A DNA stretch of 64,000 nucleotides. It comes from Gammaproteobacteria bacterium. Lineage in GTDB: Bacteria > Pseudomonadota > Gammaproteobacteria > SZUA-229. The DNA lies in the NCBI GenBank assembly GCA_026195895.1, contig JAPHRO010000023.1:18507-82506 (forward strand), given 5' to 3'. Below, piece by piece: positions 44,956 through 61,833 of this stretch (within the stretch, counting starts at the first letter, position 1; the number at the start of each line of letters is the position of its first letter). The position numbers and the translations under genes are program-made. The notes under the pieces are model-generated. The model was not told the origin of the DNA. It saw only the letters and a list, made by a program, of their open reading frames with translations, and made no database searches.

Positions 44956-44990
44956 AAGGATATTGCTTAATACATTGTCGTGCTACTGAT

Positions 44991-46646
44991 ATGAAAAAAA
45001 TAATAATATATAGTTTTATTGCTATTAATATCTGCATGGGAATTGCCAATGCAGTCACTATTCCTCAGCAAAGGCCATCCGACAAACCTCTGGAAATGCC
45101 GGGGGAAATAGAACCGGATGAAGTATTCCTGTTGCCACCTCCGTTGCTGGATTCTGATGATTTTTCATCTAGTTTAAATATTAATGTTAAAGCCATTGAG
45201 CTATCGGGCAACAAGGCGATATCGTCAGATGAGTTATTGAGCATTGTTGATGCTTATACGAATCGAATGCTAGATCAACACTTGCTCAATCAGCTTCGCA
45301 ATAAAATCACCTGGTACTATGTAGAAAAGGGATATCTAAATTCGGGGGCTTATTATCCCGATCAGGATCTTGCCGATGGTGTGTTAAAGATTAGTATTAT
45401 TGAGGGGAAAATTACAGAACTGGATATTTCAATAGAAGGAGACTTAACGGAAGCCTATGTCAGGCAGTTATTGTCGATAAACACAGATCGTATTTTCAAT
45501 ATGAACGAAATAAAAAATCGTTTATACATTTTGCAGCAGTATTCGAATATCGCCAAAGTTGACGCTAATCTGCTGCCGACAGAACTAAAAGGTAAAGCAA
45601 AGTTGATACTACGGGTAACCGAAGATGACCCACTACATTTTTCAGCTTTGCTAAATAACTACCGTCCGCCGAGTGTTGGTGAATACCAGGGTGTTTTTCA
45701 GTTAGATCATTTAAATTTAACCGGGCAGGGTGATCAGGGCTATCTACTCACTAGCGTTACGGAAGGTTTGCGTAATATCGACGGGCAGTATCGCTATCCT
45801 TTGGTACCAGGAAAATATGATCTTGGCGTATTCGCAAGTACCAATGATTCAGAAGTAGTAGAAGATGTACTTAATCTGGTTGATATCGAAAACGAATCCA
45901 GCTTATGGGGCGTTAGCGCCCGGTACGTGCCCTATAAAACGCTATATAGCGAATTGAATTTATCATTGAGTATGGAGTTTAAAAGCAGTGAGACAAGGAT
46001 AGATGGAAGCCCGTTTCTCAGTGTGAGTGGTACAGTTGACCCGGAAGTTCGGGCCAGTATTGTGCGTTTTTCACAGGAATGGTTGCATCGTGATAGAACG
46101 TCAGTGATGACCATGCGCTCCATGTTCTCTGTTGGCCTGGATCGTAACAATGCAACTATTGTTAATGGCCCGGTGGATGCAAAGTACGCCGCCTGGCTGG
46201 GTCAGCTGCAATGGCGTAACAAAACTTATAAAAATCAAAGTATTGAGCTTCGCTCTATGATACAGCTGAGCAACGATCCACTATTGCCGTTTGAACAAAT
46301 AGCGGCAGGTGGTCGTTATACAGCTCGTGGTTATAGAGAAAATGCCTTAATCCGTGATAATGGCCTTATTGCAAATCTCGAATACTATGTGCCTTTCAAA
46401 ATAAATAAATCCATATATCCCCTGAATGTTGTTTTATTTACCGATTATGCGCAGTTGAAGAATAGAGAGCGTACTTCAGGAGATAGTAAGTCTATCTCAT
46501 CTGCGGGCCTGGGTATGGTTGGCCAAATCGATAAGCACTGGTCCTATGAGATGTTCTGGGCTCATGCCAATAATGATCTCCAATCTACTACAGATGATGC
46601 CTTGCAGGATGATGGGGTTCATCTTCAGTTTCGGCTGAATTACTAA
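44991..46646 (+). CDS. two-partner secretion outer-membrane translocator (TpsB, ShlB/FhaC type)
   Basis: 551 residues: signal peptide (about 1-20), proline-rich linker, POTRA domains (about 60-210) and a 16-strand barrel ending in QFRLNY with the usual terminal aromatic. AAGGRYTARGYREN is the conserved VRGY/F-like motif of the plug loop in TpsB proteins. Transports the adjacent TpsA across the outer membrane. No ECF-type promoter element precedes this pair. Confidence 0.92.
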   Translation: MKKIIIYSFIAINICMGIANAVTIPQQRPSDKPLEMPGEIEPDEVFLLPPPLLDSDDFSSSLNINVKAIELSGNKAISSDELLSIVDAYTNRMLDQHLLNQLRNKITWYYVEKGYLNSGAYYPDQDLADGVLKISIIEGKITELDISIEGDLTEAYVRQLLSINTDRIFNMNEIKNRLYILQQYSNIAKVDANLLPTELKGKAKLILRVTEDDPLHFSALLNNYRPPSVGEYQGVFQLDHLNLTGQGDQGYLLTSVTEGLRNIDGQYRYPLVPGKYDLGVFASTNDSEVVEDVLNLVDIENESSLWGVSARYVPYKTLYSELNLSLSMEFKSSETRIDGSPFLSVSGTVDPEVRASIVRFSQEWLHRDRTSVMTMRSMFSVGLDRNNATIVNGPVDAKYAAWLGQLQWRNKTYKNQSIELRSMIQLSNDPLLPFEQIAAGGRYTARGYRENALIRDNGLIANLEYYVPFKINKSIYPLNVVLFTDYAQLKNRERTSGDSKSISSAGLGMVGQIDKHWSYEMFWAHANNDLQSTTDDALQDDGVHLQFRLNY

Positions 46647-46675: not shown

Positions 46676-46700
46676 AAACCCTTTTTTAAAATCGAGTGTC
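46676..46700 (+). promoter_or_regulatory. ECF-type promoter element, site 1
   Basis: AAACCC, 14 bases, GTGTC, on the plus strand 64 bases before the ATG of the Ig/36-residue repeat lipoprotein. It is one of six elements with identical spacing that I attribute to the ECF sigma factor at 61.5 kb. Confidence 0.65.
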
Positions 46701-46764
46701 CTGATAGTAAATAAACAAATTTAATGCGGTTAGCCGGATTATTATTACTATTAAGGACAAAGAT

Positions 46765-48069
46765 ATGATTTATAAAGTAGCGGCAGTTTTATTGACCTGT
46801 TTGGGGCTTGTAATAGCAGGGTGTGGGGGAGGCGGCAGTAGTGGTAACCTGACGCCGTATGATGGTGCAGATGTTATGCCAAATGACGGATCAGAAAAGG
46901 TCAGTGTGTTAACAGATATCCAGATTACCCTGGATAAATCCTTAGATCCGACAACCGTTAATGCGAACAATGTTATGCTGGTTAGTAAATTACCTGTTAC
47001 CGGTACGTTGGTTTATGATAATGCAAACCAGGTTGTTACGTTTACTCCATCAAAGCCTCTTGAGTACGATACTCGGTACATATTGAGACTTTCTGGTATT
47101 AAAGATGACGCAGGTAATGATCTAAGTTATCCCGAATATTCGTTTAAAACCTATGTTAACCCAATTCGTCAGAGAATTTATTACTCCTCAGGAATAACCA
47201 CATCTTATATTGAATCAACACAGGACTCGAATGGTAATGAAATCCAGACCGTACGATATGGTGGTGCCGGAAATGATGGCGTCTGGTTAACTTCTGATGA
47301 CACGATTGCCTCTTACGGTAAAAGCACCTTTGATGACAATAACAATAAACTACAAAATATTTCTTATGATGGCCCTGGTTTAGATGCGAACTGGCTTACA
47401 GCGGATGATGAAGTATCTAATCACATAGTCTACGGATATAATTCTAATGGTGATAATACAGAGTTTATTTATTATGCTGCATCAGGAAGCGATGGTATCT
47501 GGTTTACGAATGACGATACGGTAAGTACCCACAATGAGCACTTGTATAATACAGATGGGCTAATAACCGACCTTATATACAGGTCCTCAGCGGGTGCAGA
47601 TAATGTGTGGTATACATCTGATGATGTTATAGGAACACACGTCGAATATGTTTATGATAATTACGGAAATGCAACCCAATCACATTATTATAATGATGCG
47701 GGTAACGATGGAATCTGGTTAACTGTAGATGATGTTATATCACGATCAAATATAACCAGTTATGACGTGAATGGGTTTAAAACCCAATATGTTTCTTATA
47801 ATCAGCCTAATAATGTAACCAGGGGATATGGGGTTTATGACCATAATAGTAATGGTAATTTAATAAGAAGTATTAATTATAATGCCACAGGTGCTGATGG
47901 CATCTGGTTTACAGCAGATGATATTATTGCGGATTATACAGTTAACTATTACGATGTTGCAGGCAATAGAACGCAAGCAGTAAGGTACAACGGTGAAGGA
48001 ATGGATGGTGTGTGGCAAACCAGTGATGATGATATTGCACATGTTATGGAATATGACTCTAGTCTATAG
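46765..48069 (+). CDS. lipoprotein with Ig-like domain and seven 36-residue repeats
   Basis: 434 residues. Lipobox IAGC with Cys20, then a glycine/serine spacer. Residues about 35-130 form a bacterial Ig-like (Big_5/SbsA-like) domain (LDPTTVNANNVMLV, YDTRYILRLSG). The rest holds seven copies of G-x-D-x-x-W-x-T-x-DD, spaced exactly 36 residues for most copies, with Y-x-x-x-GN loops between them. One repeat unit has lost its acidic part. Acidic DD loops could bind Ca2+. I do not know a named family for these repeats. AAGGAC precedes the ATG. Surface location is inferred. Confidence 0.8.
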   Translation: MIYKVAAVLLTCLGLVIAGCGGGGSSGNLTPYDGADVMPNDGSEKVSVLTDIQITLDKSLDPTTVNANNVMLVSKLPVTGTLVYDNANQVVTFTPSKPLEYDTRYILRLSGIKDDAGNDLSYPEYSFKTYVNPIRQRIYYSSGITTSYIESTQDSNGNEIQTVRYGGAGNDGVWLTSDDTIASYGKSTFDDNNNKLQNISYDGPGLDANWLTADDEVSNHIVYGYNSNGDNTEFIYYAASGSDGIWFTNDDTVSTHNEHLYNTDGLITDLIYRSSAGADNVWYTSDDVIGTHVEYVYDNYGNATQSHYYNDAGNDGIWLTVDDVISRSNITSYDVNGFKTQYVSYNQPNNVTRGYGVYDHNSNGNLIRSINYNATGADGIWFTADDIIADYTVNYYDVAGNRTQAVRYNGEGMDGVWQTSDDDIAHVMEYDSSL

Positions 48070-48095
48070 TTTAGTTTAAACTCAGGTCTATTATT

Positions 48096-48129
48096 AAAGC
48101 CCTGTCAGGTAACTGGCAGGGCTTTTTTT
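48096..48129 (+). terminator. rho-independent terminator
   Basis: AAGCCCTG and CAGGGCTT stem with a short loop, followed by seven T, 27 bases after the repeat-lipoprotein stop. Confidence 0.85.
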
Positions 48130-48167
48130 ATCTCATAAAAAATCTTCTTAAAAAATCGTATATTTTT

Positions 48168-48192
48168 AATCCCTATTTCATCGGCAGGTGTC
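48168..48192 (+). promoter_or_regulatory. ECF-type promoter element, site 2
   Basis: AATCCC, 14 bases, GTGTC, ending 35 bases before the GTG start of the GAF gene and right after the preceding terminator, so it should drive an independent three-gene unit. Confidence 0.65.
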
Positions 48193-48227
48193 CTAGTATA
48201 AAGAATAACGCTAATGGATAGCTGTCT

Positions 48228-48791
48228 GTGACAGACTTTAAAAATGAAAAAATTCTTCAGGATTACTGGTCAAGAAAACAGGTTCTGGAACAGTCTAGTA
48301 GACGATCTGATCGTCAGAATTTACTTGAGCTATTTGTCGAATTATTGCCAAAGGTGATAGGTGCTGAACGATGCAGTGTGTTTATTTCTGACTATGATAA
48401 TGATCAGTTGTGGGTGGAAACCGGTACAGGTGTAATGCAGCGACAAATAGAAGTGCCCATGGCCAATTCTATGGTAGGTCATGTAGTTCGTCATGGCGTG
48501 ACGAGCATCCGTATGAATATGGATAAAGAACCGGGAGCTCATAAGTTAATAGATCAACAAACCGGCTTTAAAACTCGTAATGCAATCTGCGTCCCTGTTA
48601 TCAGCCTGGTTCGTGATCAGGTAGTGGGCGCAATTCAGGTTTTAAACAAACATAATAATATTCGATTTACCCCCTATGACAAAGAAATACTACTGAAAGT
48701 GGCATTTCATATTCAGTGGTCAATCGAAAACACACTGCTTAACCAGGATCTTTTGTCTATGGCTGAAGAGATGATGAGCAGTAATAGATAA
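48228..48791 (+). CDS. GAF-domain sensor protein
   Basis: 187 residues. A GAF domain (about 25-170) with ERCSVFISDYDNDQLW, NSMVGHVVRHG and ICVPVI. N-terminal helix (5-25) could be a coiled coil. No output domain and no signal peptide, so a cytosolic ligand or redox sensor acting on a partner. Starts with GTG; the nearby ATG at 48213 runs into a stop. First gene of a unit with two envelope proteins, driven by ECF element 2. Confidence 0.8.
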   Translation: MTDFKNEKILQDYWSRKQVLEQSSRRSDRQNLLELFVELLPKVIGAERCSVFISDYDNDQLWVETGTGVMQRQIEVPMANSMVGHVVRHGVTSIRMNMDKEPGAHKLIDQQTGFKTRNAICVPVISLVRDQVVGAIQVLNKHNNIRFTPYDKEILLKVAFHIQWSIENTLLNQDLLSMAEEMMSSNR

Positions 48792-48802
48792 AAGGTAATG
48801 AG

Positions 48803-49354
48803 ATGAGAAAGAAACAGTTTTTAATACTGATCGTATCTGTTATTACACTCCAAATAGGGGCGAACTATTACACTTATTCTTATATGAAGGAAGAGTTGAA
48901 AGAAATAATCACTCTGACTGATATATCGGGTAATTCTGCAGAAAATACGCTTACTTTTGCAAATACTTATTCAAAGACAGAGACTTGTATTGCTCAGGAT
49001 TTCTCGGTCTCGCTGAATGATATAGATCAGCTCATGCAATCACGCCTGGAAGATTTGCATTTCTCGATCCTGCAGGAACTGGAGCAGTCCAAAAAATCGC
49101 AAGCTAATCACTCTATTGCTCAGTCTGAGCTGTCTGAAGAACAATTGACAGCACAGCAACTGGCCAACCAGCAAGCCACCCAGATCATAGATGATTTACT
49201 CATCAGTGGGATATTGACCAGAGAAACTAGAACTCAGCTTCATCAGTCGCTTTCAAATTTGTCAGCTGAGCAGTATTCGGCTGCTATGGATCGACTAATG
49301 ACGGCTGTTAATGAGCAGAAACTGGATACCCAAAATCTTGGCTTGATGTATTAG
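48803..49354 (+). CDS. membrane-anchored coiled-coil protein, unknown function
   Basis: 183 residues: N-terminal helix (about 5-25) as anchor and a periplasmic, glutamine-rich helical part (about 85-180) likely to form coiled coil. A single Cys occurs at about 62. I do not recognise a family. AAGG precedes the ATG; it begins 11 bases after the GAF gene and is part of the same unit. Confidence 0.65.
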   Translation: MRKKQFLILIVSVITLQIGANYYTYSYMKEELKEIITLTDISGNSAENTLTFANTYSKTETCIAQDFSVSLNDIDQLMQSRLEDLHFSILQELEQSKKSQANHSIAQSELSEEQLTAQQLANQQATQIIDDLLISGILTRETRTQLHQSLSNLSAEQYSAAMDRLMTAVNEQKLDTQNLGLMY

Positions 49355-49382
49355 TTTTTTAAAGCATAACAAGGAGAATAAT

Positions 49383-49781
49383 ATGAAAATTATAAAATCT
49401 ATAACCAGCGGTGCAGCCATTATGGCATTAAGTTTGTCGGCTTACGCAGGGAAACATGTCAAAGGAGAGGTTGATGTCTATTTGGTAGGATTCGAGGTTG
49501 TCATGGCAGCTGATATGAATGTCAGATTTAATGATGAACAAAGCAGCAGCTCTTTTGTAGGTGTGTCATATAATTCAACAGATAAAACTGTTTATTTCGA
49601 AGGTTCCGATACAGGCTTTAATTTTTCGTGCAAGGTGAGCCCAACAAGTTCTTTATATGATACAGCTTTGTCTATAGCCAATAACTTAAGGCATGGTAGT
49701 CGAATAATAGTTAGAAGATATAACTTTAATAACCTGTGTCGATACATTCATGTGACGCATAGATCAGACAGGCTAGAGTAG
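49383..49781 (+). CDS. small secreted protein, unknown function
   Basis: 132 residues with a signal peptide cleaved after SAYA (about residue 22). The mature part is beta-rich with two cysteines (NFSCKV and NNLCRY) that could form a disulfide. AAGGAG precedes the ATG. Third gene of the GAF unit, followed by a strong terminator. Not recognised. Confidence 0.65.
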   Translation: MKIIKSITSGAAIMALSLSAYAGKHVKGEVDVYLVGFEVVMAADMNVRFNDEQSSSSFVGVSYNSTDKTVYFEGSDTGFNFSCKVSPTSSLYDTALSIANNLRHGSRIIVRRYNFNNLCRYIHVTHRSDRLE

Positions 49782-49810
49782 TCAATGATTAATAACTAAA
49801 CAGAAAAAAT

Positions 49811-49834
49811 AAAGGCCAGATATATCTGGCCTTT
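49811..49834. terminator. bidirectional terminator between convergent units
   Basis: A perfect 24-base palindrome (12-base arms, AAAGGCCAGATA and its complement) with T tracts on both strands, placed between the GAF unit and the convergent gene ending at 49855. Confidence 0.88.
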
Positions 49835-49854
49835 ATTTTTGGGTGTTTAACTAT

Positions 49855-51534
49855 TTAAATAATATACAGAGATCCACCTAGAATAAGGTGCACCAGGCCA
49901 ACTCCCAGGCAGGCCAGGCCAATAGTCTGGGAATAAACGTTAAGTTGTTTAACTTTATCTTTGGACTGGTCAATCTGGTCTTTTAATTTGCCTTTGGCAT
50001 TTTTCTTGATTGTGTCGTAAGCCAGAATCAAACCGAGCAATACCGCGGTCAATTGAGGAATAATAGAAGCCAGGATATTCAGGCTAATAAAGGAGTATAC
50101 AAATCCAAGAACACCCAGGGCTAAGGCCGCAAGACCAATTGGTATGGATAACTTGTCCAGCTCAGTCAGTACTTTGTCTAACGCAGGCGCTTTCTGGTTT
50201 AGAAATGCTTTAGCAGCAATCATACCGGCTACAATATTGACGACAGACAGTAATAACCAGAGCAGGGTGCTCATTGTTCCGTCACTGGAAGATGGATCAA
50301 AGGTTCCACCACGAGCCTCGGACCAGCCTTCAGGGCAGCCCATGCAGAAAGCCTTGAATTTAAGTTGGCTCCAGTTGCCGCTGGTCTTGTCTGAAATAAA
50401 TACGTAGGTCATAAAGCGACTGATGCCGTCATTGTCCTTGTCGTGGAATAATACGGTACCCTGAATTTTTCTGTACTCAATTTTGGTGTCACGGTAGATT
50501 CCAGATTTCCAGTCTGAAGTTACAGAAATCTCCAGCACTTCCGTCTCATTCTTGATAACGGAAGGATTTAACGCCTTGAGCATCTGCTGTTTGATATCTG
50601 AAAGATCGCCACCAGAGTAACTGTCTGAAGGATAATCGACCAGTTGTTTTGATTTGTCCTGGCGATCGGCTTCTTCTTTAGCAACCTGTTTGGCTTCGTC
50701 CATTGCTTTTTCCAGATCGGGCAGGTATTTAGTCAACCATTCATTGAAAAAATTAAGCTCACTGGCGGGCGAACTAAAGTTCTTTGTGACACTACCTGGA
50801 ATAGGGTTGATCACCTTATGCATGGTGCTGGTGAAGTTATCGGCACTGGTATTGTATTTCTTCTGCAGTGATAGAAAATACTTGGTGATATCTTTTAGCT
50901 GATTGTTTTTAAAGTCCAGAGTTTCCTCATGTAGTGTCTGTAACTCTTTCTGATCCCAGGAAAAACCCTTGGGTCGATCATGGCTTTGCTGGAATGCAGA
51001 GGCTTCAGCTACCATTTCAATGAATATTTTTAAATCTTTCTGGGCCTGCTCGCTGAGTTCTATCTTTTCATTATCGCCCATGGCGTTCTTCAAAGAAGCC
51101 ATGTATTTGTCCAGGTGTTTATTGAAAAAGTTCAGATCCATATCCAGCAGACTGAGTTTTGCTCTGGAATTATTTCGGAAAGGATTATCGAATTTCTGCA
51201 TATTGCGTTTGAAGTAATTAGCATTTATGTCATATTTCTTCTTCAGATTATCAAGTTGTCTAGTGATGTCCTGAAACTGGTTTTGTTTAAACGACTGTGC
51301 TTCCTTATAAAGCTTATTTACATCAGCCTGGCCCCAATTGTCTCCAGTAGGTCGAGTATGACTCTTCTGGAACTCGGCAGCTTCAGATGCCATTTCAATA
51401 AATACTTTTATATCTTTCTGAGACTGTTTGCTCAGTGCGGCTTTTTCATCGTCACTCATAGCCATGGCCAGGCTGGTATGCAAGCCAAGTGTAAGTACGG
51501 TAAGAAAGCTTAAAATCCGGTTTGCCCATTTCAT
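49855..51534 (-). CDS. secreted/membrane protein with tandemly duplicated helical domain
   Basis: 559 residues. Signal peptide (about 1-25), then two similar helical domains of about 125 residues (28-153 and 154-280) sharing QKD-x-K-x-FIEM, FQ-x-SH-x-RP and LNFFN. A beta-rich middle part (about 320-410) and about four C-terminal helices (425-555) follow. This looks like an envelope protein anchored at its C-terminus with a periplasmic sensor or binding region. I do not recognise a family. AGGAG precedes the ATG, and ECF element 6 lies upstream. Confidence 0.75.
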   Translation of the reverse strand: MKWANRILSFLTVLTLGLHTSLAMAMSDDEKAALSKQSQKDIKVFIEMASEAAEFQKSHTRPTGDNWGQADVNKLYKEAQSFKQNQFQDITRQLDNLKKKYDINANYFKRNMQKFDNPFRNNSRAKLSLLDMDLNFFNKHLDKYMASLKNAMGDNEKIELSEQAQKDLKIFIEMVAEASAFQQSHDRPKGFSWDQKELQTLHEETLDFKNNQLKDITKYFLSLQKKYNTSADNFTSTMHKVINPIPGSVTKNFSSPASELNFFNEWLTKYLPDLEKAMDEAKQVAKEEADRQDKSKQLVDYPSDSYSGGDLSDIKQQMLKALNPSVIKNETEVLEISVTSDWKSGIYRDTKIEYRKIQGTVLFHDKDNDGISRFMTYVFISDKTSGNWSQLKFKAFCMGCPEGWSEARGGTFDPSSSDGTMSTLLWLLLSVVNIVAGMIAAKAFLNQKAPALDKVLTELDKLSIPIGLAALALGVLGFVYSFISLNILASIIPQLTAVLLGLILAYDTIKKNAKGKLKDQIDQSKDKVKQLNVYSQTIGLACLGVGLVHLILGGSLYII

Positions 51535-51578
51535 TTTGAGACTCCTGTGATGTCTTTATTTGGTTTGTTTGTTAATAA

Positions 51579-51603
51579 GAAACCACAGGGGTAAAAAAGG
51601 ATT
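51579..51603 (-). promoter_or_regulatory. ECF-type promoter element, site 6
   Basis: On the minus strand AATCCT, 14 bases, GTTTC, 44 bases before the ATG at 51534. The surrounding sequence also matches element 5 (upstream of 55974) over an AT-rich block TTAATTTATTTT seen on the plus strand. Confidence 0.6.
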
Positions 51604-51714
51604 AATTTATTTTGAAAAATAGCAAATATTTATTGTTTTCGAATGGATGGGTTTTTTTAGTGCTTATCTAATAAGATATTAATGAAATCTATTATTAATG
51701 AGAAGATAAGGAAT

Positions 51715-51915
51715 TCAACGAAGGTCATGCATTGTCTCAATGTTGACAATTAAAAACAGAAGACTCCAGTAACTTGGCGATATGGGTAGATAAAAGTAAC
51801 CCATAAGAATTAGAATAGATGCAAGAAAGGGTGTTGGATAACTGTGTGCTTCATAGCCAGTTTTTGTTTTCCGGTAATTTATTAGTTGTCGAGTGATGCC
51901 AGCTATCACCACAAA
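51715..51915 (-). CDS. possible small two-helix membrane protein
   Basis: In the 523-base gap 51535-52057 the minus strand has a frame of 66 codons with two hydrophobic stretches: one at the N-terminus that extends upstream of the first GTG, the other PFLASILILMGYFYL followed by SYWSLLFLIV. Only GTG starts are available, no ribosome site is visible and a stop lies just before the frame. It could be a real small membrane protein or a fragment. The rest of the gap has ECF element 6 and nothing else. Confidence 0.3.
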   Translation of the reverse strand, partial: FVVIAGITRQLINYRKTKTGYEAHSYPTPFLASILILMGYFYLPISPSYWSLLFLIVNIETMHDLR

Positions 51916-52057
51916 AAAAGTAATTAAAATTAATATTGAATCGGGTAGTCAGTCGAGATTATTCATGTGGACTCATGTGTGGCAGTAGGTGGAAAGGATC
52001 GGATAAATGAGTTTCTCTGCGACACAGTAAGTGTCACAGAGAAACTAAATGTAGGCG

Positions 52058-53887
52058 TTAATCTAGTCGTGATCTTCGTACGAAGAACAGTATTAATCCG
52101 CTTATAATTAACAGAAGTCCACTCATGGTGCCACCGCTGCTGTTACCTGTAGGATCAGGATCAGGATCAGGAGTAGGTGTAGGTGGTGGTGTAGTCGACG
52201 AGCCTGTTGTACTGGTGAAGATATCTCTGGTCACAGAGCCAAGTATCACGGAAGTATTATCGGGAGTATGCCTGCCTCCGATATTGACAATAGTATGTGC
52301 CGAATCCCCGTCATTGGCCGCTGAGGTATGACGGACATTGATCTGATCGCCATTTTGAACATAACCAATATGTCTTTGATACATGGTGGAACCATTTAGA
52401 GCGTATTCGCCATCAACAACGTTTAAGGGAACAGTGATGTTAGGGCCCAGGCCAGCTACTGTGATCATATCCGATGTGACCAGCGTGCTGGCGCTCGCTC
52501 CGATTTCATCTGTGAAGCTGAAAGCATCCGCCAGTGTGTCCAGGGTGCTTCCTTCATATCGTGTTAAGGTGAATTGAGTTTGAGTTCCCGAAGAATAACC
52601 TGCATTGACTATGTTTCCATCTGTTTGAATCGCTGTGGCCCATGACCATGTCATGCTTGGGGAAGTGGCTTTGCCCCCTGTACCGAAACTTGAATCAAGA
52701 GAGCCATCAGTGTTGTACCTGAGTAGCATGTCTGATGTGCCAGACAGTCCACCGAGCAGGATTTTGCCATCGGCCTGGAGTACGACTGAATAACCCTGAT
52801 CTCGGCTATACGCGTTACCGTCAGTAACAACGTAGCCATCGGTATCAAAGCTGGTGTCCAGCGAGCCATCACTGTTATAGCGAATGAGTAAAAAGTCCGC
52901 GCCATTGGTTGTAGACATACTGTCCCTGGAAAATCCGGCGACCAGTATTTTTCCATCTGGCTGGATTAATATATCTTTGACATCGTCACCAGCTTTAATA
53001 TCCAGGCTTTCAGATACACCATCGGTGCCAAAGGTAGGATCCAGGGTGCCATCACTATCCAGCCGAGCAACAAATGGATCTTTATTCCCCGAGCCAGATA
53101 CTAAAACCAATTCACCACCGATTATAATTTTGCCATCAGGCTGGATGGCTATGGCTGTAGCAAGATCAGGTATGCTGTTTGTAGTGCCAATATCGAGTAT
53201 CAGTGCACCTGTTCCATCGAACGTCGTATCCAGGCTGCCGTCACTGTTGTAGCGTAGAACTGCTATATCATCCTGGATTCTACGAGTTTGTGCACTGACT
53301 AGAATTTTTCCATCGGGTTGTAGAGCCATTCTGGTAGGTGTATCCGCACTAATGTTGTTGCTCTGGGTCGACGCCATATTAATGTCGGTGACGACGCTGC
53401 CATCCATATCAAAACTTGTATCCAGAGTACCGTCAGTGTTGAACCGTAACAGCGACACATCTTCACTGCTGGAGCCGCTGGCCACATTCCAGCTGGAACA
53501 GAGTACGACAATTTTTCCATCCGGCTGGATGATCATATCCTTTGGTTCGTCACTTAATGAAGATAGTTGGCCAACGACTGTTCCTGAAGTTCCGAAGCTT
53601 GTATCCAGTGAACCGTCGTTATTATAGCGAGAAAGGGCGTAACGCTTGATATGGTTTGTTGTGTTAAAGGTGTAGCCAGCAACAACTATTTTGCCATCTG
53701 TTTGAATAGCCATGGCTCGTATTACTTCAGCAGCACCACTTACAATAGTGCTAGTAACGACGCCATTGGTGCCAAAGCTGGTATCAAGATCACCCGGCGC
53801 GGCGAATACGGGATTTGCCATGAACAGGGTAGTGCCGGTAATGATTCCCATCATACTCCTGAACAAATATTTTCTACTAGTGTTCAT
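52058..53887 (-). CDS. delta-60 repeat surface protein
   Basis: About 609 residues. Signal peptide (cleavage near VFAAPGD), then about eight delta-60 repeats of the form DGSLDTSFG-x-x-G followed by QPDGKI-x-V, a beta-propeller-like array. A C-terminal region (about 450-570) precedes a GNSSGG spacer, a hydrophobic stretch and RRSR, which resembles a sorting tail. ATG 53887 has AAGGAG six bases upstream; the longer frame from 53965 is rejected. It follows the FG-GAP gene by 26 bases and is presumably driven by ECF element 5. Confidence 0.85.
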   Translation of the reverse strand: MNTSRKYLFRSMMGIITGTTLFMANPVFAAPGDLDTSFGTNGVVTSTIVSGAAEVIRAMAIQTDGKIVVAGYTFNTTNHIKRYALSRYNNDGSLDTSFGTSGTVVGQLSSLSDEPKDMIIQPDGKIVVLCSSWNVASGSSSEDVSLLRFNTDGTLDTSFDMDGSVVTDINMASTQSNNISADTPTRMALQPDGKILVSAQTRRIQDDIAVLRYNSDGSLDTTFDGTGALILDIGTTNSIPDLATAIAIQPDGKIIIGGELVLVSGSGNKDPFVARLDSDGTLDPTFGTDGVSESLDIKAGDDVKDILIQPDGKILVAGFSRDSMSTTNGADFLLIRYNSDGSLDTSFDTDGYVVTDGNAYSRDQGYSVVLQADGKILLGGLSGTSDMLLRYNTDGSLDSSFGTGGKATSPSMTWSWATAIQTDGNIVNAGYSSGTQTQFTLTRYEGSTLDTLADAFSFTDEIGASASTLVTSDMITVAGLGPNITVPLNVVDGEYALNGSTMYQRHIGYVQNGDQINVRHTSAANDGDSAHTIVNIGGRHTPDNTSVILGSVTRDIFTSTTGSSTTPPPTPTPDPDPDPTGNSSGGTMSGLLLIISGLILFFVRRSRLD

Positions 53888-53913
53888 TTCTCTCTCCTTA
53901 CCTAAGTGTAAAT

Positions 53914-55974
53914 TCATGTCTTTGCTCGAAACTGTTTGCGATGCCTTTGAATCACCAGTTTCCATGCCAGTGGAAGTAGTAGTAATTCCAGCCAGCCAAT
54001 ACTGCCTCCACTGCCACCGCCCAAATTGTCATCAGCCGCGATACCGGTTCCAGTAATAGAAACTGTAATAATGGTTTCGTCGGGATCGTCCGATGGGATA
54101 TCAAAATTGTCGCTAAAGTCGTTTGCGAAAGTCGGTTCGAAGAGGATTCTGAATGAGCAGCTGGTTGATGGTGCGATGCTCTGACCTGAACAACCGTCAT
54201 TGCTTGTACTAAAGGGTGCTGCGAGTGCGTTATTGTTGGCAATGTTTCCAATCAGCAGGTCTGCGTTGCCATCATTAGTGAGGGTGATGGTTTCAAATGC
54301 TGATTCAAATTCAACAATATTGCCAAATGAAATTAGATAATTGGTGAACGGTGAAGCGGTTGAGGTTACAGTAATATCAGGTACTGCCATTCCCACGCCC
54401 TGGCCACTAAGATTAATAGTGACTGGACTTTCATCAGCATCATCTGAAGGGATATCAAAACTATCGCTAAAGCTTGTGCTAGATGTGGGATAAAAACTGA
54501 CGTTAATAGTGCAATAAGTTGAAGGTTGTAGAACCAGCCCTGAGCAGGTATCAAGTAAAAAGGCGAATGGGTTAACCAGGCTATCAATCTGGGCAATCTG
54601 GCCAATGGTTAAATCTGCTGTGCCAGTATTTGTGACGGTTATTGTTTCGCTTTCGGCCGTAAATTCGGTAACACTGCCAAAATTAACCAGAAGATCATTC
54701 GCAGGTACGACCTGATCGGTAATGGTGATTTCTGGTGCAGGTGCAGCCCAGCTATAAATATAAGTGGAGCCAGAATTCAGGCCACTGTCATCGTCCCGGT
54801 GCGCGCCGATTGCAATGAAATCCCCATCAATTGAAACGGAGTTGCCGTATTCGTCATAGCTTGAGCCATCGGACGACTCCAGTTTCTGTAACTGGGACCA
54901 GTTGCCGTTCATGTCACGACTGAATACATAGGCTGAGCCGGTATCGGTGCCTCGGTCACTATCTCCAACGGCACCGACAACGATTCGGTCACCACTGATC
55001 GAAATACGGTGTCCAAAATAATCCGATGCCGTACCATCGGTGGCCAGAAGCTTGTCCTGTTGTGACCAGATACCATTAGTATCACGAACAAAGGCATAGG
55101 CTGAGCCAGAATTGCTACCGTTATCGTCGTCGTAGTAAGCGCCAACCGCAACCGTGTCGTTGTCTACGGCTACCGAGACACCAAAGAAATCGGTTGTTGC
55201 ACCATCTGATGCAGTGAGTTTTTGCTGGGTGCTCCAGTTACCATTAGTGTCACGCACATATACTACGGCCGACCCCTCGTAACTGAGGTCGAAATATACA
55301 CCGACTACCGCCGTGTCGTTATGGATGTCTACCGAAAGGCCGGCGAATTCGCCGGCATCACCAGGGGCGAATTCTGCTGGCTGCCCCCAGTTACCGTTCG
55401 TATCACGGGTGTAAACATAGGCGCGACCTGCGTCTGTTCCAGCTGCGTCGTCTTTGGGGGCGCCGATAATGGCCGTGTCATTATGAATTGCGACACTGAA
55501 ACCGAATCTGCCAGTATCTGAACCGGAAGTAGGATTGAGTTTTTGCTGTTGTGTCCAGTTGCCATTCGTGTCGCGCACAAAAACATAAGCGGCACCTGCA
55601 TGGCCAATGGGGTTAGTATAATTACTATAGGGAGCACCGATAATGACCGTATCACCACTGATGGCAACAGCTTCACCGAAACGATCATAGGCTGCCCCAT
55701 CACTGGGAAGCAATTTCTGTTGTTGAGCCCAGTTGCCATTGGTATCGCGAACGAAAATATAGGCGGAACCGGAATGCTCACCATTATCACCGTCGTATAT
55801 AGCGCCGACAATGGCTGTATCGCCACTTATGGCGACCGCTTCACCAAAGCTGTCCTGGTAGGCGCCATCTGAAGCTAACAACTTGAGTTCATTGGCGAAG
55901 TTTGCAGATGCTGTTAACGGTGTAAATATCAGTGATATCAAAGCGATAAGAGCTGGCAGCTTTTTGTTGTTCAT
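53914..55974 (-). CDS. FG-GAP repeat protein with choice-of-anchor domains and GlyGly-CTERM tail
   Basis: 686 residues. Signal peptide (cleavage near TASANFAN); about seven FG-GAP/integrin-like repeats (25-430; GDTAIVGA and GSAYVFVRDTNGNW-type units), an integrin-like beta propeller. Two ASPM-SPD2-Hydin/choice-of-anchor D domains follow (about 435-540 and 545-650; TNTGTADLTIG, PSTYCTINVSF). The C-terminus GGGSGGSIGW, hydrophobic stretch and basic end fit the GlyGly-CTERM signal processed by rhombosortase in type II-secreted surface proteins. GAAGGG precedes the ATG. Confidence 0.87.
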   Translation of the reverse strand: MNNKKLPALIALISLIFTPLTASANFANELKLLASDGAYQDSFGEAVAISGDTAIVGAIYDGDNGEHSGSAYIFVRDTNGNWAQQQKLLPSDGAAYDRFGEAVAISGDTVIIGAPYSNYTNPIGHAGAAYVFVRDTNGNWTQQQKLNPTSGSDTGRFGFSVAIHNDTAIIGAPKDDAAGTDAGRAYVYTRDTNGNWGQPAEFAPGDAGEFAGLSVDIHNDTAVVGVYFDLSYEGSAVVYVRDTNGNWSTQQKLTASDGATTDFFGVSVAVDNDTVAVGAYYDDDNGSNSGSAYAFVRDTNGIWSQQDKLLATDGTASDYFGHRISISGDRIVVGAVGDSDRGTDTGSAYVFSRDMNGNWSQLQKLESSDGSSYDEYGNSVSIDGDFIAIGAHRDDDSGLNSGSTYIYSWAAPAPEITITDQVVPANDLLVNFGSVTEFTAESETITVTNTGTADLTIGQIAQIDSLVNPFAFLLDTCSGLVLQPSTYCTINVSFYPTSSTSFSDSFDIPSDDADESPVTINLSGQGVGMAVPDITVTSTASPFTNYLISFGNIVEFESAFETITLTNDGNADLLIGNIANNNALAAPFSTSNDGCSGQSIAPSTSCSFRILFEPTFANDFSDNFDIPSDDPDETIITVSITGTGIAADDNLGGGSGGSIGWLELLLLPLAWKLVIQRHRKQFRAKT

Positions 55975-56038
55975 TTTTAAACCCTTCCCTTAAAAACAGC
56001 GCATTAATGAAATTGCTTTGCTACTGTGTTACTGCTGA

Positions 56039-56063
56039 GAAACCGCAGTCTTAAAAAGGGTTT
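56039..56063 (-). promoter_or_regulatory. ECF-type promoter element, site 5
   Basis: On the minus strand AAACCC, 14 bases, GTTTC, 64 bases before the ATG of the FG-GAP gene. Confidence 0.65.
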
Positions 56064-56184
56064 AATTTATTTTCTGTCAGGGAGAGTTAAAGAGGGGGTT
56101 GGTAGCTTGTATTTAGCGTAGACACAGAAAGGCTCATTTTATTGGGATAGGGCAGTGCTATTAAGGATAAGTGCCGAAAAATGC

Positions 56185-58239
56185 TTATAACCAGTTGCCA
56201 ATCAGTAAAAATGGCGCCCAGTAACCGGGGTGGCGATAGCGAATATTACCTATCATATTGCGTTGAGCCAGTTGCAGGGAGCGGGCTTTACCCAGGTTGT
56301 TCTGTTTAAGATTTTTATAGAATTCATTCATTAACAGGCTGGTTGCTTCATCATTTACCTGCCATAGGGTTGCAAGTGCACTACGAGAACCAGCTTTAAC
56401 GGTGATGCCTGCGAGACCGAGAGCAGCTTTTTCATTGCCTGCCGCCGTGTGACAGGCGCTCAAGGTTAATAAATCCAGTGGCGTGTCTCTAAATCGATTA
56501 AAGCCTATGTAGTCTGCCAGTTGGCCGACATTGATTTTTTTATCATAGGCCAGCACAAAGGATTTCTGTATATCATCGTTAAACTCGCCGTGGGTAGCAA
56601 TATGAGCAATGCTATAGGTCTCGTTGGTAAAAGCAGTGGATAGCGATTGGCTATTAAATTGCTCGTCTAGCATGATTTCAGACTGAAAATGCTGATTTAT
56701 GTCATTCAGTTCTTTTTGCACGTGATTTAAAGGTGCATAGCCTGAAACCGATTCTGACAGGCCAGTGAGCAAAATGGTTTTTGCCGAATCTGGTCTACCT
56801 GTATCCGTTAGATTTAGTCCGGGCGATGTCGCCAGAGCATATTTTTCAATTAGAAACTGGTTGCCGTCATGTAATGCTGCTAACGGTAGCCCGTTGAGCC
56901 CATAGCCTGGAATGGCGATCAATGTTGATACCTGTGCGGCTTTGAGCTCATTTTCAATGGGTCGAACAATCGTGTCGTAAAGATGTTGCGCCAGATCCAG
57001 GTAGCTTCGTGAGCGTCGTTTCTCGAGGTGCTGCCTAAACTCTTTAATATCTTCCAATAGGACTAATTTATTCAGAGGTAATGTAAATTGTTTTATTTCG
57101 TTTTCTAAACTGAGTAAGAGTTCCAGTCGGTCATTAAATGCTATTGGGTAGAGTACCGCTGTGTTGTTGTCGATTATCGATTCTAGCGTTCGGATACGTT
57201 GCTGAGTTTCTGTAACGCACTGGTCCTTAAAGTAATTTTGTAAATCAACCGCCTTTGATTTTTCTATTACTTTCCTGGCAGTTTGCAATGTTACCTGTTT
57301 TTCTTCATGGGTAAGTGATGAAGTGCGATTTAGTAGAGCGTCAGCATACTCAATGTACACTTCTGCTGTATTACTTGATCTTAGAGATAATTTATCAAAC
57401 ACATCTGACAGGGAAATATTATGCTTTTCAATGTTATTAATACTGTTCTGATAATAATCAATGGCAGCATTTATGTCAGTAGCCTGTTTATAGTATCGGG
57501 CAAGTTGCCAGTTTGACTTAAAAATTAATTCTGGATTCTGAATTTGTTGTGCCAGATGGTGAGTTTTTAGGGCCTGGTCAATTGCATGCTTCGTTTGACC
57601 TGTCAGGCTATATAAAATTGACTGTAGTAAATAGGCGCTGGCTCTGTTTTCCTTAGTGGATGATGTGCTTAGAATCTGGTTAAGTAAATTAAAAGAATAA
57701 AGAATTAACGATTTATTATTGGCGTTATTCTGGGACAGTATTTTCTGTAGTATTTTTGCCTGGCGGATCGCTGAAATTTCCAGGTCCTGTTTGTCTGGAA
57801 ACACAGATTCTAATTCAAATGGGTTGTTTTCCTGAATAATATCAAAGGCGTTTTTATAATTACCGAGATGTAAGTGGGTGATTGCCAGATTGTTTTTAAG
57901 TCGAAAATCAATGTATTTGTTCGTGTTTAAACTTAAAGCCTGGCTGATAGTGTTTTGAGCATCAGTCAGGTTGCCAGACAGGATCTGCGTGGTAGAAAGA
58001 TTGTTCAATAATTCTACGTATAATTTACTGTTTTTCTCGGAATTAATCTGGCTTATAAGATTATTAAAACAGTTATGCGCCTCGGAAAATTGAGTGTTTG
58101 TTATCAGATTGTTGCACTTTTGTGCGTCATCAATATTGCTGGCAGAAACGTTGAGGGCTCCTGATAAAAAGCAAATGCAGCTGATCAAAGCGCTAAATTT
58201 GCACCAGTTTGTTCTCACTAGTTTCTGAATAACATCCAT
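56185..58239 (-). CDS. secreted TPR-CHAT (caspase-like) protease
   Basis: 684 residues. Signal-peptide-like N-terminus (about 10-33, ending NVSAS), TPR-like helical repeats (about 35-330), and a C-terminal CHAT domain (about 400-684). The caspase-type dyad is intact: H550 in HIATHGEF and C596 in LSACHTAAGN; GYWAPFLLIG ends the domain as usual. CHAT proteases cut specific protein partners. The ATG at 58239 overlaps the end of the M48 gene; a GTG at 58215 is an alternative start. Last gene of the sigma operon. An exported CHAT protease is uncommon and puts its targets in the periplasm, if the signal is real. Confidence 0.87.
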   Translation of the reverse strand: MDVIQKLVRTNWCKFSALISCICFLSGALNVSASNIDDAQKCNNLITNTQFSEAHNCFNNLISQINSEKNSKLYVELLNNLSTTQILSGNLTDAQNTISQALSLNTNKYIDFRLKNNLAITHLHLGNYKNAFDIIQENNPFELESVFPDKQDLEISAIRQAKILQKILSQNNANNKSLILYSFNLLNQILSTSSTKENRASAYLLQSILYSLTGQTKHAIDQALKTHHLAQQIQNPELIFKSNWQLARYYKQATDINAAIDYYQNSINNIEKHNISLSDVFDKLSLRSSNTAEVYIEYADALLNRTSSLTHEEKQVTLQTARKVIEKSKAVDLQNYFKDQCVTETQQRIRTLESIIDNNTAVLYPIAFNDRLELLLSLENEIKQFTLPLNKLVLLEDIKEFRQHLEKRRSRSYLDLAQHLYDTIVRPIENELKAAQVSTLIAIPGYGLNGLPLAALHDGNQFLIEKYALATSPGLNLTDTGRPDSAKTILLTGLSESVSGYAPLNHVQKELNDINQHFQSEIMLDEQFNSQSLSTAFTNETYSIAHIATHGEFNDDIQKSFVLAYDKKINVGQLADYIGFNRFRDTPLDLLTLSACHTAAGNEKAALGLAGITVKAGSRSALATLWQVNDEATSLLMNEFYKNLKQNNLGKARSLQLAQRNMIGNIRYRHPGYWAPFLLIGNWL

Positions 58240-59999
58240 GATCTGATTTTATTGTTATTAATTTGAAAGGCCAGGCCCTGGTCTGCATATATTAAATTGC
58301 TACCATTTATAGAATATTGAACGGAGCTAGGGGTTCCGTAATTGCGATAGATCAACTTGTCTTCACTATTGACGCTGAGCCCCGTTTGAGTAATGCCAGA
58401 AAAAGACTTATCTACAATTAGGTAATTAATTTCATCTTCGAGTGAAATGGTGTTAATGCCATTGTTGAATCGACTAAAGGTGTAGATGTTTCCCTGCAGA
58501 TTAAACTGAAAGGAATTGATGAGTTTCCAGCTGTCAGGAATCTCGTCAATATAATGTCCAACCTGAACATCGTTGATGTTTTCTGGAGCATGAGAACGGG
58601 ATATATAAGTAGTGATTCCAAGCTGTTTTTTTACTTTATTGGCCCAGTGGCTGTGGTTATCCAATGCCAGGTATTGTGACCAGTAATCTTTTGCTAAATC
58701 CTCACGCGAGGACTGTTTGGCCAGTAATCCTAAATTGAAAATTGCATTGATATTGTCGTGGTTCAGATCAATAGCGGATAAAAGAAACTGTTCTGATTTT
58801 TTAAGATCGCCAACGGCTTGAAAAGCAATGGCCAGGTTATTATGAATATTCGAATTCTCAGGATCTATGGTGATGGCTTCTTTTAACAGACCAATGGCTT
58901 TGTAGGCCTGGTCGTTTTCCAGGTATGCACATGCCAGATTACTATATGCCAGGGTATAGTCTTTATCTTGTGAAATCGCCTGTTGATAATATTTGATCGC
59001 CTTATTTAACAGGGTTTTATATTTCTCGTGATCAGGCGTGCTATTGCTGCGATCGAATGCCCGTGAGTAGGGATCAAGTTCCAGTGACACTCGATAATCG
59101 TTTCTGGAGTTATGTGGGCGCAGTTGAAGTGCGAGCTTGTGATTGCTCAATGCAAGATTATGGTTTACTTCTCGTCCCGGATAAAATTGCCTGAACTCTT
59201 CAAATGCTGCTATAGATTGCTGATAATCGCCCGCCTGATGAAACCATACGCCTAATCTGAACAACAGAGATTGTCTTCTGATTTCGTCCATACGGCTGGT
59301 GACCGCTATTTCACGTTGTTCAGCAGAGGGGTGTGTTTTAGAAACAAGATCAGGATTAGCAGAAAACCGAGTAATCCAGTTTTCAAAAAAACTGCCATTG
59401 GTAGAATGACCCAGAATATTATCAGGATTAAAACCAGCCATAATTGCAAAAGTCAGCCCCTGTTCATCAGCCCGAAGTTCTTTTGAAAGAATCTTATGGT
59501 TTTCTGATGCTATCCGTTGCAATTCTTTCTTTTGTATATTGTTATTGTGCTTAGAAGCAGCAAGTGTTTGAAAGAATTTCATATGCCAGAAATCATCTTC
59601 CAGTTGATGAGCGATTTCATGAGCCAGGATGAAAGCAAGGATGTCGTCACTTTTGCCAGGGTGTTTTTTGGTAAATTTTAAGGTATGTTCTGAAATGATT
59701 ATCCAGCCATCGGGGATAGCCATGGGTAAGGGAAGGTGTTCGGGCGCGTTTTTAATAATTAGAAGTTGAGGTTCGATACCATTTCTTGTGCCCGCGGTTC
59801 GAACCAGCTGGTTAAAAATACTATGTGCCTTATCGGCTTCCATGCCTGATGCTTCGTTATAGTTGTTCTTCCAGAAACTGATGCGTTCTTTTGGATTTAC
59901 TGGTTGAGATATAGCCTGCGAACTGAGTATAGCGGTGAGAAGGATGCCCAGCGTAAGCCAGCATCTGAAAAAATTCTGTCCCATGATGGAGTATTTCAT
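58218..59999 (-). CDS. secreted M48 metalloprotease with TPR repeats
   Basis: About 593 residues. Signal peptide (ending near AISQPV), M48 peptidase domain with HEIAH at 127-131 and the downstream zinc ligand in ELRADEQG, so catalytically complete, then TPR repeats (about 230-430) and a beta-rich C-terminus. Resembles BepA-like periplasmic M48-TPR proteases. ATG 59999 is preferred to TTG 60026. It lies 19 bases after the anti-sigma-like gene and overlaps the CHAT gene, so all four genes form one operon. Confidence 0.87.
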   Translation of the reverse strand: MKYSIMGQNFFRCWLTLGILLTAILSSQAISQPVNPKERISFWKNNYNEASGMEADKAHSIFNQLVRTAGTRNGIEPQLLIIKNAPEHLPLPMAIPDGWIIISEHTLKFTKKHPGKSDDILAFILAHEIAHQLEDDFWHMKFFQTLAASKHNNNIQKKELQRIASENHKILSKELRADEQGLTFAIMAGFNPDNILGHSTNGSFFENWITRFSANPDLVSKTHPSAEQREIAVTSRMDEIRRQSLLFRLGVWFHQAGDYQQSIAAFEEFRQFYPGREVNHNLALSNHKLALQLRPHNSRNDYRVSLELDPYSRAFDRSNSTPDHEKYKTLLNKAIKYYQQAISQDKDYTLAYSNLACAYLENDQAYKAIGLLKEAITIDPENSNIHNNLAIAFQAVGDLKKSEQFLLSAIDLNHDNINAIFNLGLLAKQSSREDLAKDYWSQYLALDNHSHWANKVKKQLGITTYISRSHAPENINDVQVGHYIDEIPDSWKLINSFQFNLQGNIYTFSRFNNGINTISLEDEINYLIVDKSFSGITQTGLSVNSEDKLIYRNYGTPSSVQYSINGSNLIYADQGLAFQINNNKIRSWMLFRN

Positions 60000-60018
60000 G
60001 TGCCATCTATCCAATAGG

Positions 60019-60981
60019 CTAACCAAGTATTGAGTTTATTGTCTCAATAGCGGTGGTGAGTTGTTTAATATCAGTTTTTTCAAGACTCTTCTTGCTTAAC
60101 ACTGAATTTATCGTATTCCAGTGGTCATGAACCCCTTTGGGAAAATCTATGGTTCTTAAGTCCTGAAAAAGTACCTGTCCTTCTTCCTGTATTGATTTTG
60201 TATTTAATAAATTAATCTGCCTGCTTTCTGTTAATAAGCGTACTTTGGTAATCCAGATTCCGGATCGAAACAGCACAAAGTCGTTTGATGAAAGGGATTT
60301 CGCTAGCTGGTCTTTTGTTGTTTCAAGGGTGGCGGCAATATTATGGGTAGACACTGTTAAATGTGAAATGCCAGCCAGATTGTGTATGGCTTCCAGTTTT
60401 TTAGTGCTGTTAGATAAATCCTCTTTATAGAAATAGGCGGTTGATAACGCATATTGTTGGCCAAGATTAAATACATTAAGAGATGTCGACTCTGTAAATG
60501 AAAAATGTGAATGCTGGATGTTTTCCAGTTTTTGTATGTCAATCGCAGAAAGATTTAGCTCTTGCCAATAGTGATCCTGTTCAGGAATCAGGTAAATAGT
60601 AAGGGCTATCAATAATCCCAGGGCAAGAGCCGGTTCGGCTAATTTAGCGAGGAGAGGGAGTTCACTCCACCAATAACGAAGTTTAGCTAAAACACCAGTA
60701 TCAGGTTTTGTCGTATTTTCGATGGGTGACTCTGGTTTACATTTTTTCAGAACATTATCAGCAAAACTATTCCAGAATTCAGTTCCAGGATCAGGAACTT
60801 CATCGGCCTGGCTGAGCTCAATAAATGCTTTTTGCTCATTGTGATAGTTTTGAAGTTCAGCATTATTATTCATTAAAGCTTCTATTTCAGCGCGGCTATT
60901 ATCATCCAGTAAGCCCAGGATATAGTCGTCAATCCGTTCCTGAAGTTCCTGCGATATCTCTGACTGGGGAGTATTATTCAT
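60019..60981 (-). CDS. anti-sigma-factor-like membrane protein
   Basis: About 320 residues. The N-terminal part (ERIDDYILGLLDDNSRAEIE) resembles the cytosolic domain of anti-sigma factors in which a short helix bundle binds the sigma factor; no zinc-binding HxxxCxxC is present. One hydrophobic helix at about 118-140, then a periplasmic helical domain of about 180 residues. The ATG at 60981 has AGG eight bases upstream; ATG 60987 is in frame. It overlaps the sigma gene's stop, so expression is coupled. Periplasmic cleavage by the neighbouring proteases would be a natural release mechanism, but is not shown. Confidence 0.75.
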   Translation of the reverse strand: MNNTPQSEISQELQERIDDYILGLLDDNSRAEIEALMNNNAELQNYHNEQKAFIELSQADEVPDPGTEFWNSFADNVLKKCKPESPIENTTKPDTGVLAKLRYWWSELPLLAKLAEPALALGLLIALTIYLIPEQDHYWQELNLSAIDIQKLENIQHSHFSFTESTSLNVFNLGQQYALSTAYFYKEDLSNSTKKLEAIHNLAGISHLTVSTHNIAATLETTKDQLAKSLSSNDFVLFRSGIWITKVRLLTESRQINLLNTKSIQEEGQVLFQDLRTIDFPKGVHDHWNTINSVLSKKSLEKTDIKQLTTAIETINSILG

Positions 60982-61519
60982 AGTCATCGCCTTGCATAAA
61001 TTGTCGTAGCGTCTTTAACGCGTGATGATAATTAGCTTTTGCTGTGCCAATCGGGCATTCCATTATTTCAGCTACCTGCTTAAGCGTACATTCCTGGAAA
61101 AACCGTAGCTGAATTGTTAAACGCTGTTTTTCCGGCAACCGAGAAATTACCGATTTTATCCGGGCTTTCTGCTCATCGTCGAGGACGTTTTCACAACCCG
61201 TATCAGAGCCCGTCTTTTCAATAATCTCGGGTTCAACATTTTTATCGATTCGTTGTCGGGCTGCACTTCGATGATGGTTTTTGCTCAGGTTTATAGCAAT
61301 CTTATATAACCAGCTTTTAAAAGCAGCATGGCCCTGAAACTGGGCCGCTTTCCTGTAAACCTGAACAAAGCTGGCCTGACATATATCCGAGGTATCGTCA
61401 TGATTACCTACCTGTCGCCAGACAAATCGATATAAATTATGTTGATGCCTGGAGACTAATTCCTTAAATGCTGACTCGTTTCCATCCAGAAACTGTTTTA
61501 ATAACTCATCATCGGTCAT
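60974..61519 (-). CDS. ECF-subfamily RNA polymerase sigma factor
   Basis: 181 residues with sigma-2 (about 20-90: RFVWRQVGNHDDTSDICQAS) and sigma-4 (about 120-175: LPEKQRLTIQLRFFQECTLK, then PIGTAKANYHHALKTLR) regions and no sigma-3, as in ECF factors. Likely held by the membrane protein encoded directly downstream. Candidate promoter element 4 lies 23 bases before its start, so it probably controls itself. Directs transcription of the six-element regulon, if the motif assignment is correct. Confidence 0.9.
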   Translation of the reverse strand: MTDDELLKQFLDGNESAFKELVSRHQHNLYRFVWRQVGNHDDTSDICQASFVQVYRKAAQFQGHAAFKSWLYKIAINLSKNHHRSAARQRIDKNVEPEIIEKTGSDTGCENVLDDEQKARIKSVISRLPEKQRLTIQLRFFQECTLKQVAEIMECPIGTAKANYHHALKTLRQFMQGDDYE

Positions 61520-61542
61520 TAAATCACCAGAATTACTGCCAA

Positions 61543-61567
61543 GACACCGCTAACTGTGGAAGGGTTT
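61543..61567 (-). promoter_or_regulatory. ECF-type promoter element, site 4 (autoregulation)
   Basis: On the minus strand AAACCC, 14 bases, GTGTC, 23 bases before the ATG of the sigma gene. Confidence 0.65.
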
Positions 61568-61745
61568 AGTAAATAGCACATATTGCCACGAATTTATTAT
61601 TTGTTGATTATTAGAGAAATTATACTGGTGATTGGGGGTGGTATCTATTGATTAATCTCCTTTAAACGTCCGTTTTATCTTGTGAGTCAATTATCAGCCA
61701 TTATTCATATTCCTCGTTATGACCGGTAAATCTTCAAATTTTATT

Positions 61746-61770
61746 AATCCCTTTTTTGCCCTCTGGTGTC
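61746..61770 (+). promoter_or_regulatory. ECF-type promoter element, site 3
   Basis: AATCCC, 14 bases, GTGTC, on the plus strand 63 bases before the ATG of the propeller lipoprotein. Together with element 4 it makes a divergent promoter pair. Confidence 0.65.
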
Positions 61771-61833
61771 ATAGCTGTGTATTTAGAATTTTTAAAAGAT
61801 TTTTGTGCATATGGAATACCCAGGGGGTGAAAA

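Follow-up and report, generated by a model that had tools for sequence, protein, structure and literature searches.

The stretch of 64,000 nucleotides analysed here (the window) comes from the Gammaproteobacteria bacterium assembly GCA_026195895.1 (contig JAPHRO010000023.1, positions 18,507 to 82,506) and carries an operon for an extracytoplasmic function (ECF) sigma factor among genes for predicted surface proteins. A promoter-like element, AAWCCY-N14-GTKTC, precedes this operon and five flanking transcription units. It occurs exactly six times in the window, all within one 15-kb stretch. The earlier note on this DNA had listed these six elements, and all of them were found at its positions and on its strands, in the right orientation and 23-64 bases before a start codon (64, 35, 44, 64, 23 and 63 bases in order of position). 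Its proposal of a local ECF regulon is, as far as sequence comparison goes, strongly supported by the confinement of the element, outside genes, to this cluster and by the presence of the same box before the orthologous ECF gene in all four related operons described below.

The sigma operon lies on the reverse strand and encodes, in this order, an ECF sigma factor, an anti-sigma-like protein, an M48 metalloprotease-like protein with tetratricopeptide repeats (TPR) and a TPR-CHAT protein. Its predicted ECF promoter, CTAAACC-N15-GTGTC (61543..61567, -), is located 23 bases before the start codon. The first protein (60974..61519, -) is a protein of 181 amino acid residues (aa) that comprises sigma2 and sigma4 regions only. 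Its Pfam matches Sigma70_r2 (residues 21-88) and Sigma70_r4_2 (residues 120-171) confirm the assignment of this unit as the ECF sigma operon, and a profile of its relatives matches the structures of sigma-H (6in7), RpoE and SigW. The second protein (60019..60987, -, 322 aa), whose gene overlaps the ECF gene, is predicted as a membrane anti-sigma factor from hydropathy and weak family and profile matches. A single hydrophobic helix at about residues 116-134 suggests a single-pass membrane protein. The NCBIfam anti-sigma model gave 23 bits, under its cut-off of 100, and in a profile search of the PDB (E <= 10) four of the nine matches, including the best two, were anti-sigma factors (E 0.03-0.6), one of them RslA. 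The third protein (58218..60026, -; M48-TPR) was assigned by family search and carries a HEIAH motif; its signal-like N-terminus was judged by eye and stays under the hydropathy cut-off used. The fourth, a TPR-CHAT caspase-like protein (56185..58239, -; CHAT match of 172 bits), has a signal-peptide-like N-terminus. Its residues His550 and Cys596, which we take to be the catalytic pair of the fold, are invariant in all 12 aligned sequences. Because both proteins begin with signal-like stretches, as judged from hydropathy, M48-TPR and TPR-CHAT are probably exported. Neither of the two is mentioned in the earlier note.

The units behind the other five boxes had been described as encoding envelope or secreted repeat proteins or a GAF sensor operon; most of the products are predicted surface proteins. 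Just after tpsB, a predicted ECF promoter (46676..46700, +) lies 64 bases before the gene of a putative lipoprotein with a bacterial Ig-like Big_5 domain (46765..48069, +; lipobox by eye). The next one (48168..48192, +; 35 bases to the start) precedes a unit (48228..49781, +) composed of a gene for a GAF-domain protein (48228-48791) and two small genes (48803-49354 and 49383-49781). On the reverse strand, the box at 51579..51603 (-) is located 44 bases before the gene of a 559-aa protein (49855..51534, -) with a signal-like N-terminus, four C-terminal hydrophobic segments and no family above cut-off; the N-terminal part of this protein looks internally duplicated by eye. The box at 56039..56063 (-) stands 64 bases before the gene of an FG-GAP repeat protein (53914..55974, -) with a signal-like N-terminus, choice-of-anchor D domains and a GlyGly-CTERM signal (16.1 bits against a cut-off of 15.5, full-length). 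The genome encodes a rhombosortase (153 bits against a cut-off of 84), which fits this signal. A gene for a delta-60 repeat protein (52058..53965, -), in which no GlyGly-CTERM match was found, follows and is probably co-transcribed; its frame overlaps the end of the FG-GAP gene, and translation is likely to begin at a later start codon. The sixth box (61746..61770, +), which diverges from the sigma operon, precedes by 63 bases the gene of a putative lipoprotein with PD40 beta-propeller repeats (61834..63741, +; lipobox by eye). An antisense frame that overlies this box (61734-62219) was taken as spurious.

Dinucleotide shuffles of the window gave a mean of 0.27 matches to the pattern, and none of 100 shuffles reached six. 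The zone in which the elements lie (10-80 bases before a start and in the right orientation) makes up 1.4% of strand positions, as estimated from a rough list of 45 frames. The pattern has 14 matches across the genome (3.33 Mb in 84 contigs), namely the six in the window and eight on other contigs; the reversed pattern has seven. All eight outside matches sit inside open frames of 263-535 aa, so the genome-wide scan, which the earlier note had put forward as a check, did not refute the regulon. Alignment of the six sites extended the box to YTAAWCC-N15-GTKTC: a T precedes AAWCC in all of them, an AT-rich stretch lies farther upstream, and a T-run follows the -35 box in four sites and is interrupted in a fifth. 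The extended box has 11 matches in the genome, the six window sites and five others, all five within other frames. Judged by sequence, this cluster is the only place in its genome where the element occurs outside coding frames. As the pattern had been derived from the sites themselves, matrix scoring was added. With a matrix built from the six sites, these scored 30-40 bits, whereas nothing else in the window exceeded 14; in leave-one-out scoring five of the six sites were outscored by no outside place, and the ECF gene's own box by one. The window reaches the end of its contig, and the cluster may therefore extend beyond it.

A two-partner secretion pair is located directly before the regulon (41749-46646, +), consisting of TpsA with a TPS domain and TpsB with POTRA and ShlB domains. 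No close match to the box was found before tpsA or between tpsA and tpsB, the best having three mismatches and spacings of 16 or 17, in agreement with the earlier note.

Orthologous operons were sought with the M48-TPR protein in 24 genomes from a single order within the same class. Orthologues with 37-39% identity were found in four of them (G352, G425, G426 and G427), which belong to another family; in each, the genes for ECF sigma factor, anti-sigma-like protein, M48-TPR and CHAT protein occur in the same order. Their ECF proteins are 43-46% identical to that of the window, and in all five operons the anti-sigma-like protein shows a single hydrophobic helix in its middle part. The M48-TPR and CHAT genes lie directly behind the anti-sigma gene in all five, the window counted. 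Directly before the ECF gene of all four relatives stands CTAAACC-N15-GTGTC (in G425 an inner start codon was taken, as the longest ECF frame covers the box), so that the same 12 fixed bases and spacing, with AAACC, GTGTC and no CGT, precede the ECF gene in five of five operons.

This exact box has 14 matches among the 24 order genomes, all in the four operon genomes and none in the other 20. Nine of them precede four ECF genes, four BTAD regulator genes and one tpsB; three precede a KAS III-like gene, a frame of 110 aa and, at a distance of 182 bases, a frame of 246 aa; for another there is just a small frame far off, and the last (G352, C6) was discarded as a likely chance match since it is located inside an antisense frame. 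A BTAD regulator gene with TpsA and/or TpsB as neighbours follows the box in all four relatives: it adjoins both tps genes in three of them, while in G426 it lies beside tpsB at a contig end. The BTAD domain was named by Pfam in three relatives and in G426 by likeness to one of those; the G427 neighbourhood was pieced together from two stretches on a single contig. One would not expect chance matches to fall in front of orthologous ECF genes, and of BTAD genes, at independent loci. Similar boxes occur in G426 upstream of a gene for a Ser/Thr protein kinase (L165, 3604-3630) and in G427 before a gene for a small secreted-looking protein beside hydrogenase-like genes (L164, 7945-7971); both genes are possible further regulon members. 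Distant M48-TPR paralogues were also seen in G426 (L126, 413-2395, 31%) and G425 (L125, 1601-3538, 27%), with no sigma or CHAT genes on these short fragments.

Within its own family (54 genomes) the ECF gene was found only in this genome, where the profile gave E 2e-93 against 4e-39 or weaker elsewhere. A box-like pattern had seven matches here, six of them in the window, and 30 over the 53 other family genomes (0-4 each), with 20 in the reversed control over the same 53. Class-wide, the ECF search found four of 369 genomes at E <= 1e-30, this one included. The operon is present in just one of the other three, G352; 20-kb stretches of the remaining two, G265 and G191, yielded neither an M48-TPR nor a CHAT gene. 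The corresponding M48-TPR search (E <= 1e-60) found at least two of 369 genomes, this one included, a lower bound among the at most three candidates scored per genome. Since M48-TPR was found in so few genomes, the operon looks rare in the class. An ECF search of genome contigs returned 42 loci with 20-31% identity, mostly from other phyla, and a motif scan of 101 loci gave three isolated box matches among these 42. M48-TPR homologues in a wider protein set include Nitrospirae and Syntrophobacteraceae, four of them on contigs equal in size to that of an ECF homologue, a hint, though no proof, that the operon is more widely distributed.

Taken together, we favour with moderate confidence the explanation that the six elements are promoters of the clustered ECF sigma factor, and that the probable trigger is cleavage of the anti-sigma factor by M48-TPR and TPR-CHAT outside the cytoplasm. 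The anti-sigma-like membrane protein would keep the sigma factor held until the predicted exported proteases cut it, upon which the freed sigma factor would transcribe from the boxes and turn on its own operon and the five flanking units. The protease trigger may involve either of the two operon proteases. With the protease genes downstream of the autoregulated promoter, activation would feed forward. Outputs in the window would be the two putative lipoproteins, the GlyGly-CTERM FG-GAP and delta-60 proteins, the 559-aa membrane protein and the GAF unit. The conserved output may be remodelling of the cell surface, because the box in the relatives precedes a BTAD regulator beside two-partner secretion genes.

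Several observations weigh against this explanation or parts of it. The earlier note speaks of AAC-type -35 and GTC-type -10 boxes, but the -35 box reads AATCC in three of six, with no literal AAC, and the -10 box reads GTTTC in two of six, with no literal GTC. In the 24 order genomes the reversed control gave 11 matches, five in G426 and six over five operon-less genomes, and the four with the operon rank high in genome size within the set (3.8-5.2 Mb); a looser search of five genomes yielded 37 real against 17 reversed matches. The match count alone is thus weak, and the case rests on the locations of the boxes. None of the window's flanking surface genes was found in the fetched stretches of the relatives. 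As for the anti-sigma-like protein, zf-HC2 gave no match in the window's copy, though relatives at the same position carry it; a sequence search with it found no relative outside its own genome, and its structural model was poor (mean predicted local distance difference test score 66), with no reliable fold match. The window's own tps genes are without a box, unlike the BTAD-tps loci of the four relatives. Finally, CHAT genes with no such sigma factor on the stretch covered lie beside tps genes in at least five of ten loci of other genomes, a lower bound with several contigs being short; CHAT may therefore serve secretion and not the anti-sigma factor.

The last point leads to the alternative that survives best, in which the regulon is real, CHAT and M48-TPR belong to its output and serve in the processing or folding of surface proteins (e.g. 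the TpsA passenger), and standard DegS/RseP-type proteases cut the anti-sigma factor. We regard it as unlikely, if well short of negligible: the sigma-less CHAT genes adjoining TpsA or TpsB in those five loci speak for it, as does the box before the BTAD gene next to the tps genes of the relatives, but M48-TPR and CHAT stay directly behind the anti-sigma gene in five of five operons, and a link between TPR-CHAT and a sigma inhibitor exists in Craspase and, going by fold, perhaps also in DdvA. CHAT as a trigger and CHAT as a secretion output can also coexist. A reading of the boxes as transcription-factor binding sites instead of promoters appears very improbable. Such a role would suit the two boxes reading GTTTC and the BTAD regulators in the regulon of the relatives; against it, the element is asymmetric, with a fixed 15-base gap between AAWCC and GTKTC, it points at the gene, with 17-64 bases between it and the start codon in the six window units and at the relatives' ECF genes, and it tracks the ECF operon among the 24 order genomes. 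Chance, or descent from duplicated upstream regions, is the least credible of all: the pattern was chosen after the sites were seen and reversed patterns also give matches, but the shuffles, the in-frame location of the other matches, the matrix and leave-one-out scores, the boxes before orthologous ECF and BTAD genes and the family control (at most four matches in any ECF-less genome) argue against chance, and spacers and downstream bases differ apart from the AT-rich stretch and the T-run, and the sites thus lack the look of recent copies.

Elsewhere in the window, a gene pair at 38909-40149 (+) resembles an AbiE-type nucleotidyltransferase system by eye, with no search run, and a dense run of CBS-domain transporter-like, MgtE-like and mechanosensitive-channel-like genes was seen by eye at 3665-6333 and 16391-24197.

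The sigma factor described here has a promoter code that can be read from sequence alone and a small local target list, and its operon supplies a candidate caspase-like activator beside it. If CHAT does cut the anti-sigma factor, caspase-type proteolysis would control bacterial transcription beyond CRISPR defence as well, and what CHAT proteins do beside surface secretion genes would become testable. The combination of a separate membrane anti-sigma factor, exported-looking M48-TPR and TPR-CHAT proteins and a box shared across families was not found in the open-access literature searched, where the Csx29 paper was the only one found to link CHAT to ECF sigma factors.

Autoregulated ECF regulons are common; autoregulation is given for about 55% of known ECFs, and the promoters concerned are listed as AAC / CGT type (PMC8103513). 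For SigW of Bacillus subtilis, the same source gives the -35 box as ATTGAAACCTTT (PMC8103513). This box resembles the ATTAAACCCTTT of the window's element. The -10 box of SigW differs from that of the element. ECF control of two-partner secretion is likewise known already, the regulon of the PUMA3 system (VreA-VreI-VreR) of Pseudomonas aeruginosa being described to include a two-partner secretion system (PMC2729926). The PUMA3 signal arrives via a receptor-like protein, and none is encoded in the window's operon. In the RpoE-RseA-DegS-RseP system a membrane anti-sigma factor is freed by proteolysis and the ECF operon is autoregulated (PMC8103513). The window is similar in its predicted membrane anti-sigma factor and in an ECF operon behind its own predicted promoter; RpoE, however, is a general envelope stress factor, whereas the targets in the window are clustered locally and the operon itself carries genes for candidate proteases.

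Closest in fold are the TPR-CHAT proteins. The best matches of the CHAT model in the PDB were the TPR-CHAT chains of Craspase, followed less strongly by DdvA in Foldseek. Sequence searches of the PDB with the CHAT protein or its CHAT domain found no CHAT relative, and the best 60 of 127 matches to a full-length profile were mostly TPR proteins; the suggested link to Csx29 and DdvA is therefore one of modelled fold. In the DdvS-DdvA system of Myxococcus xanthus, DdvA is a transmembrane anti-sigma factor, and the TPR-CHAT-like part would share its chain; here and in the four relatives, anti-sigma factor and TPR-CHAT are encoded by separate genes with the M48-TPR gene between them. In Craspase, the TPR-CHAT protease Csx29 is reported to cut the ECF inhibitor Csx30 (PMC10028731). 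The TPR-CHAT protease fold with the conserved His and Cys is present in the window as well. The type III-E systems (Csx29, Csx30, CASP-sigma) have Cas7-11 and a CRISPR array beside TPR-CHAT. In the window, PADLOC found no Cas7-11-type effector among the four operon proteins (two weak matches in TPR regions) and no match in ten neighbours; no CRISPR array was found around the operon, and no 22-mer occurs three times, although just some 2.5 kb of contig remain past the operon and that side is open. A defence function was rejected, as PADLOC gave no match of note for operon proteins or neighbours. The system differs from Craspase in that its CHAT protein starts with a signal-peptide-like stretch, its candidate inhibitor is membrane-bound, the operon includes an additional M48-TPR gene and most of the outputs are surface proteins. 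We put forward, tentatively, that the system is an exported, CRISPR-free counterpart of Craspase, in which periplasmic CHAT and M48-TPR would sense trouble at the surface, cut the anti-sigma factor and so free an ECF sigma factor to equip the cell with its own set of surface proteins; caspase-type control of sigma factors would then be an ancient theme in bacteria, taken up by CRISPR systems.

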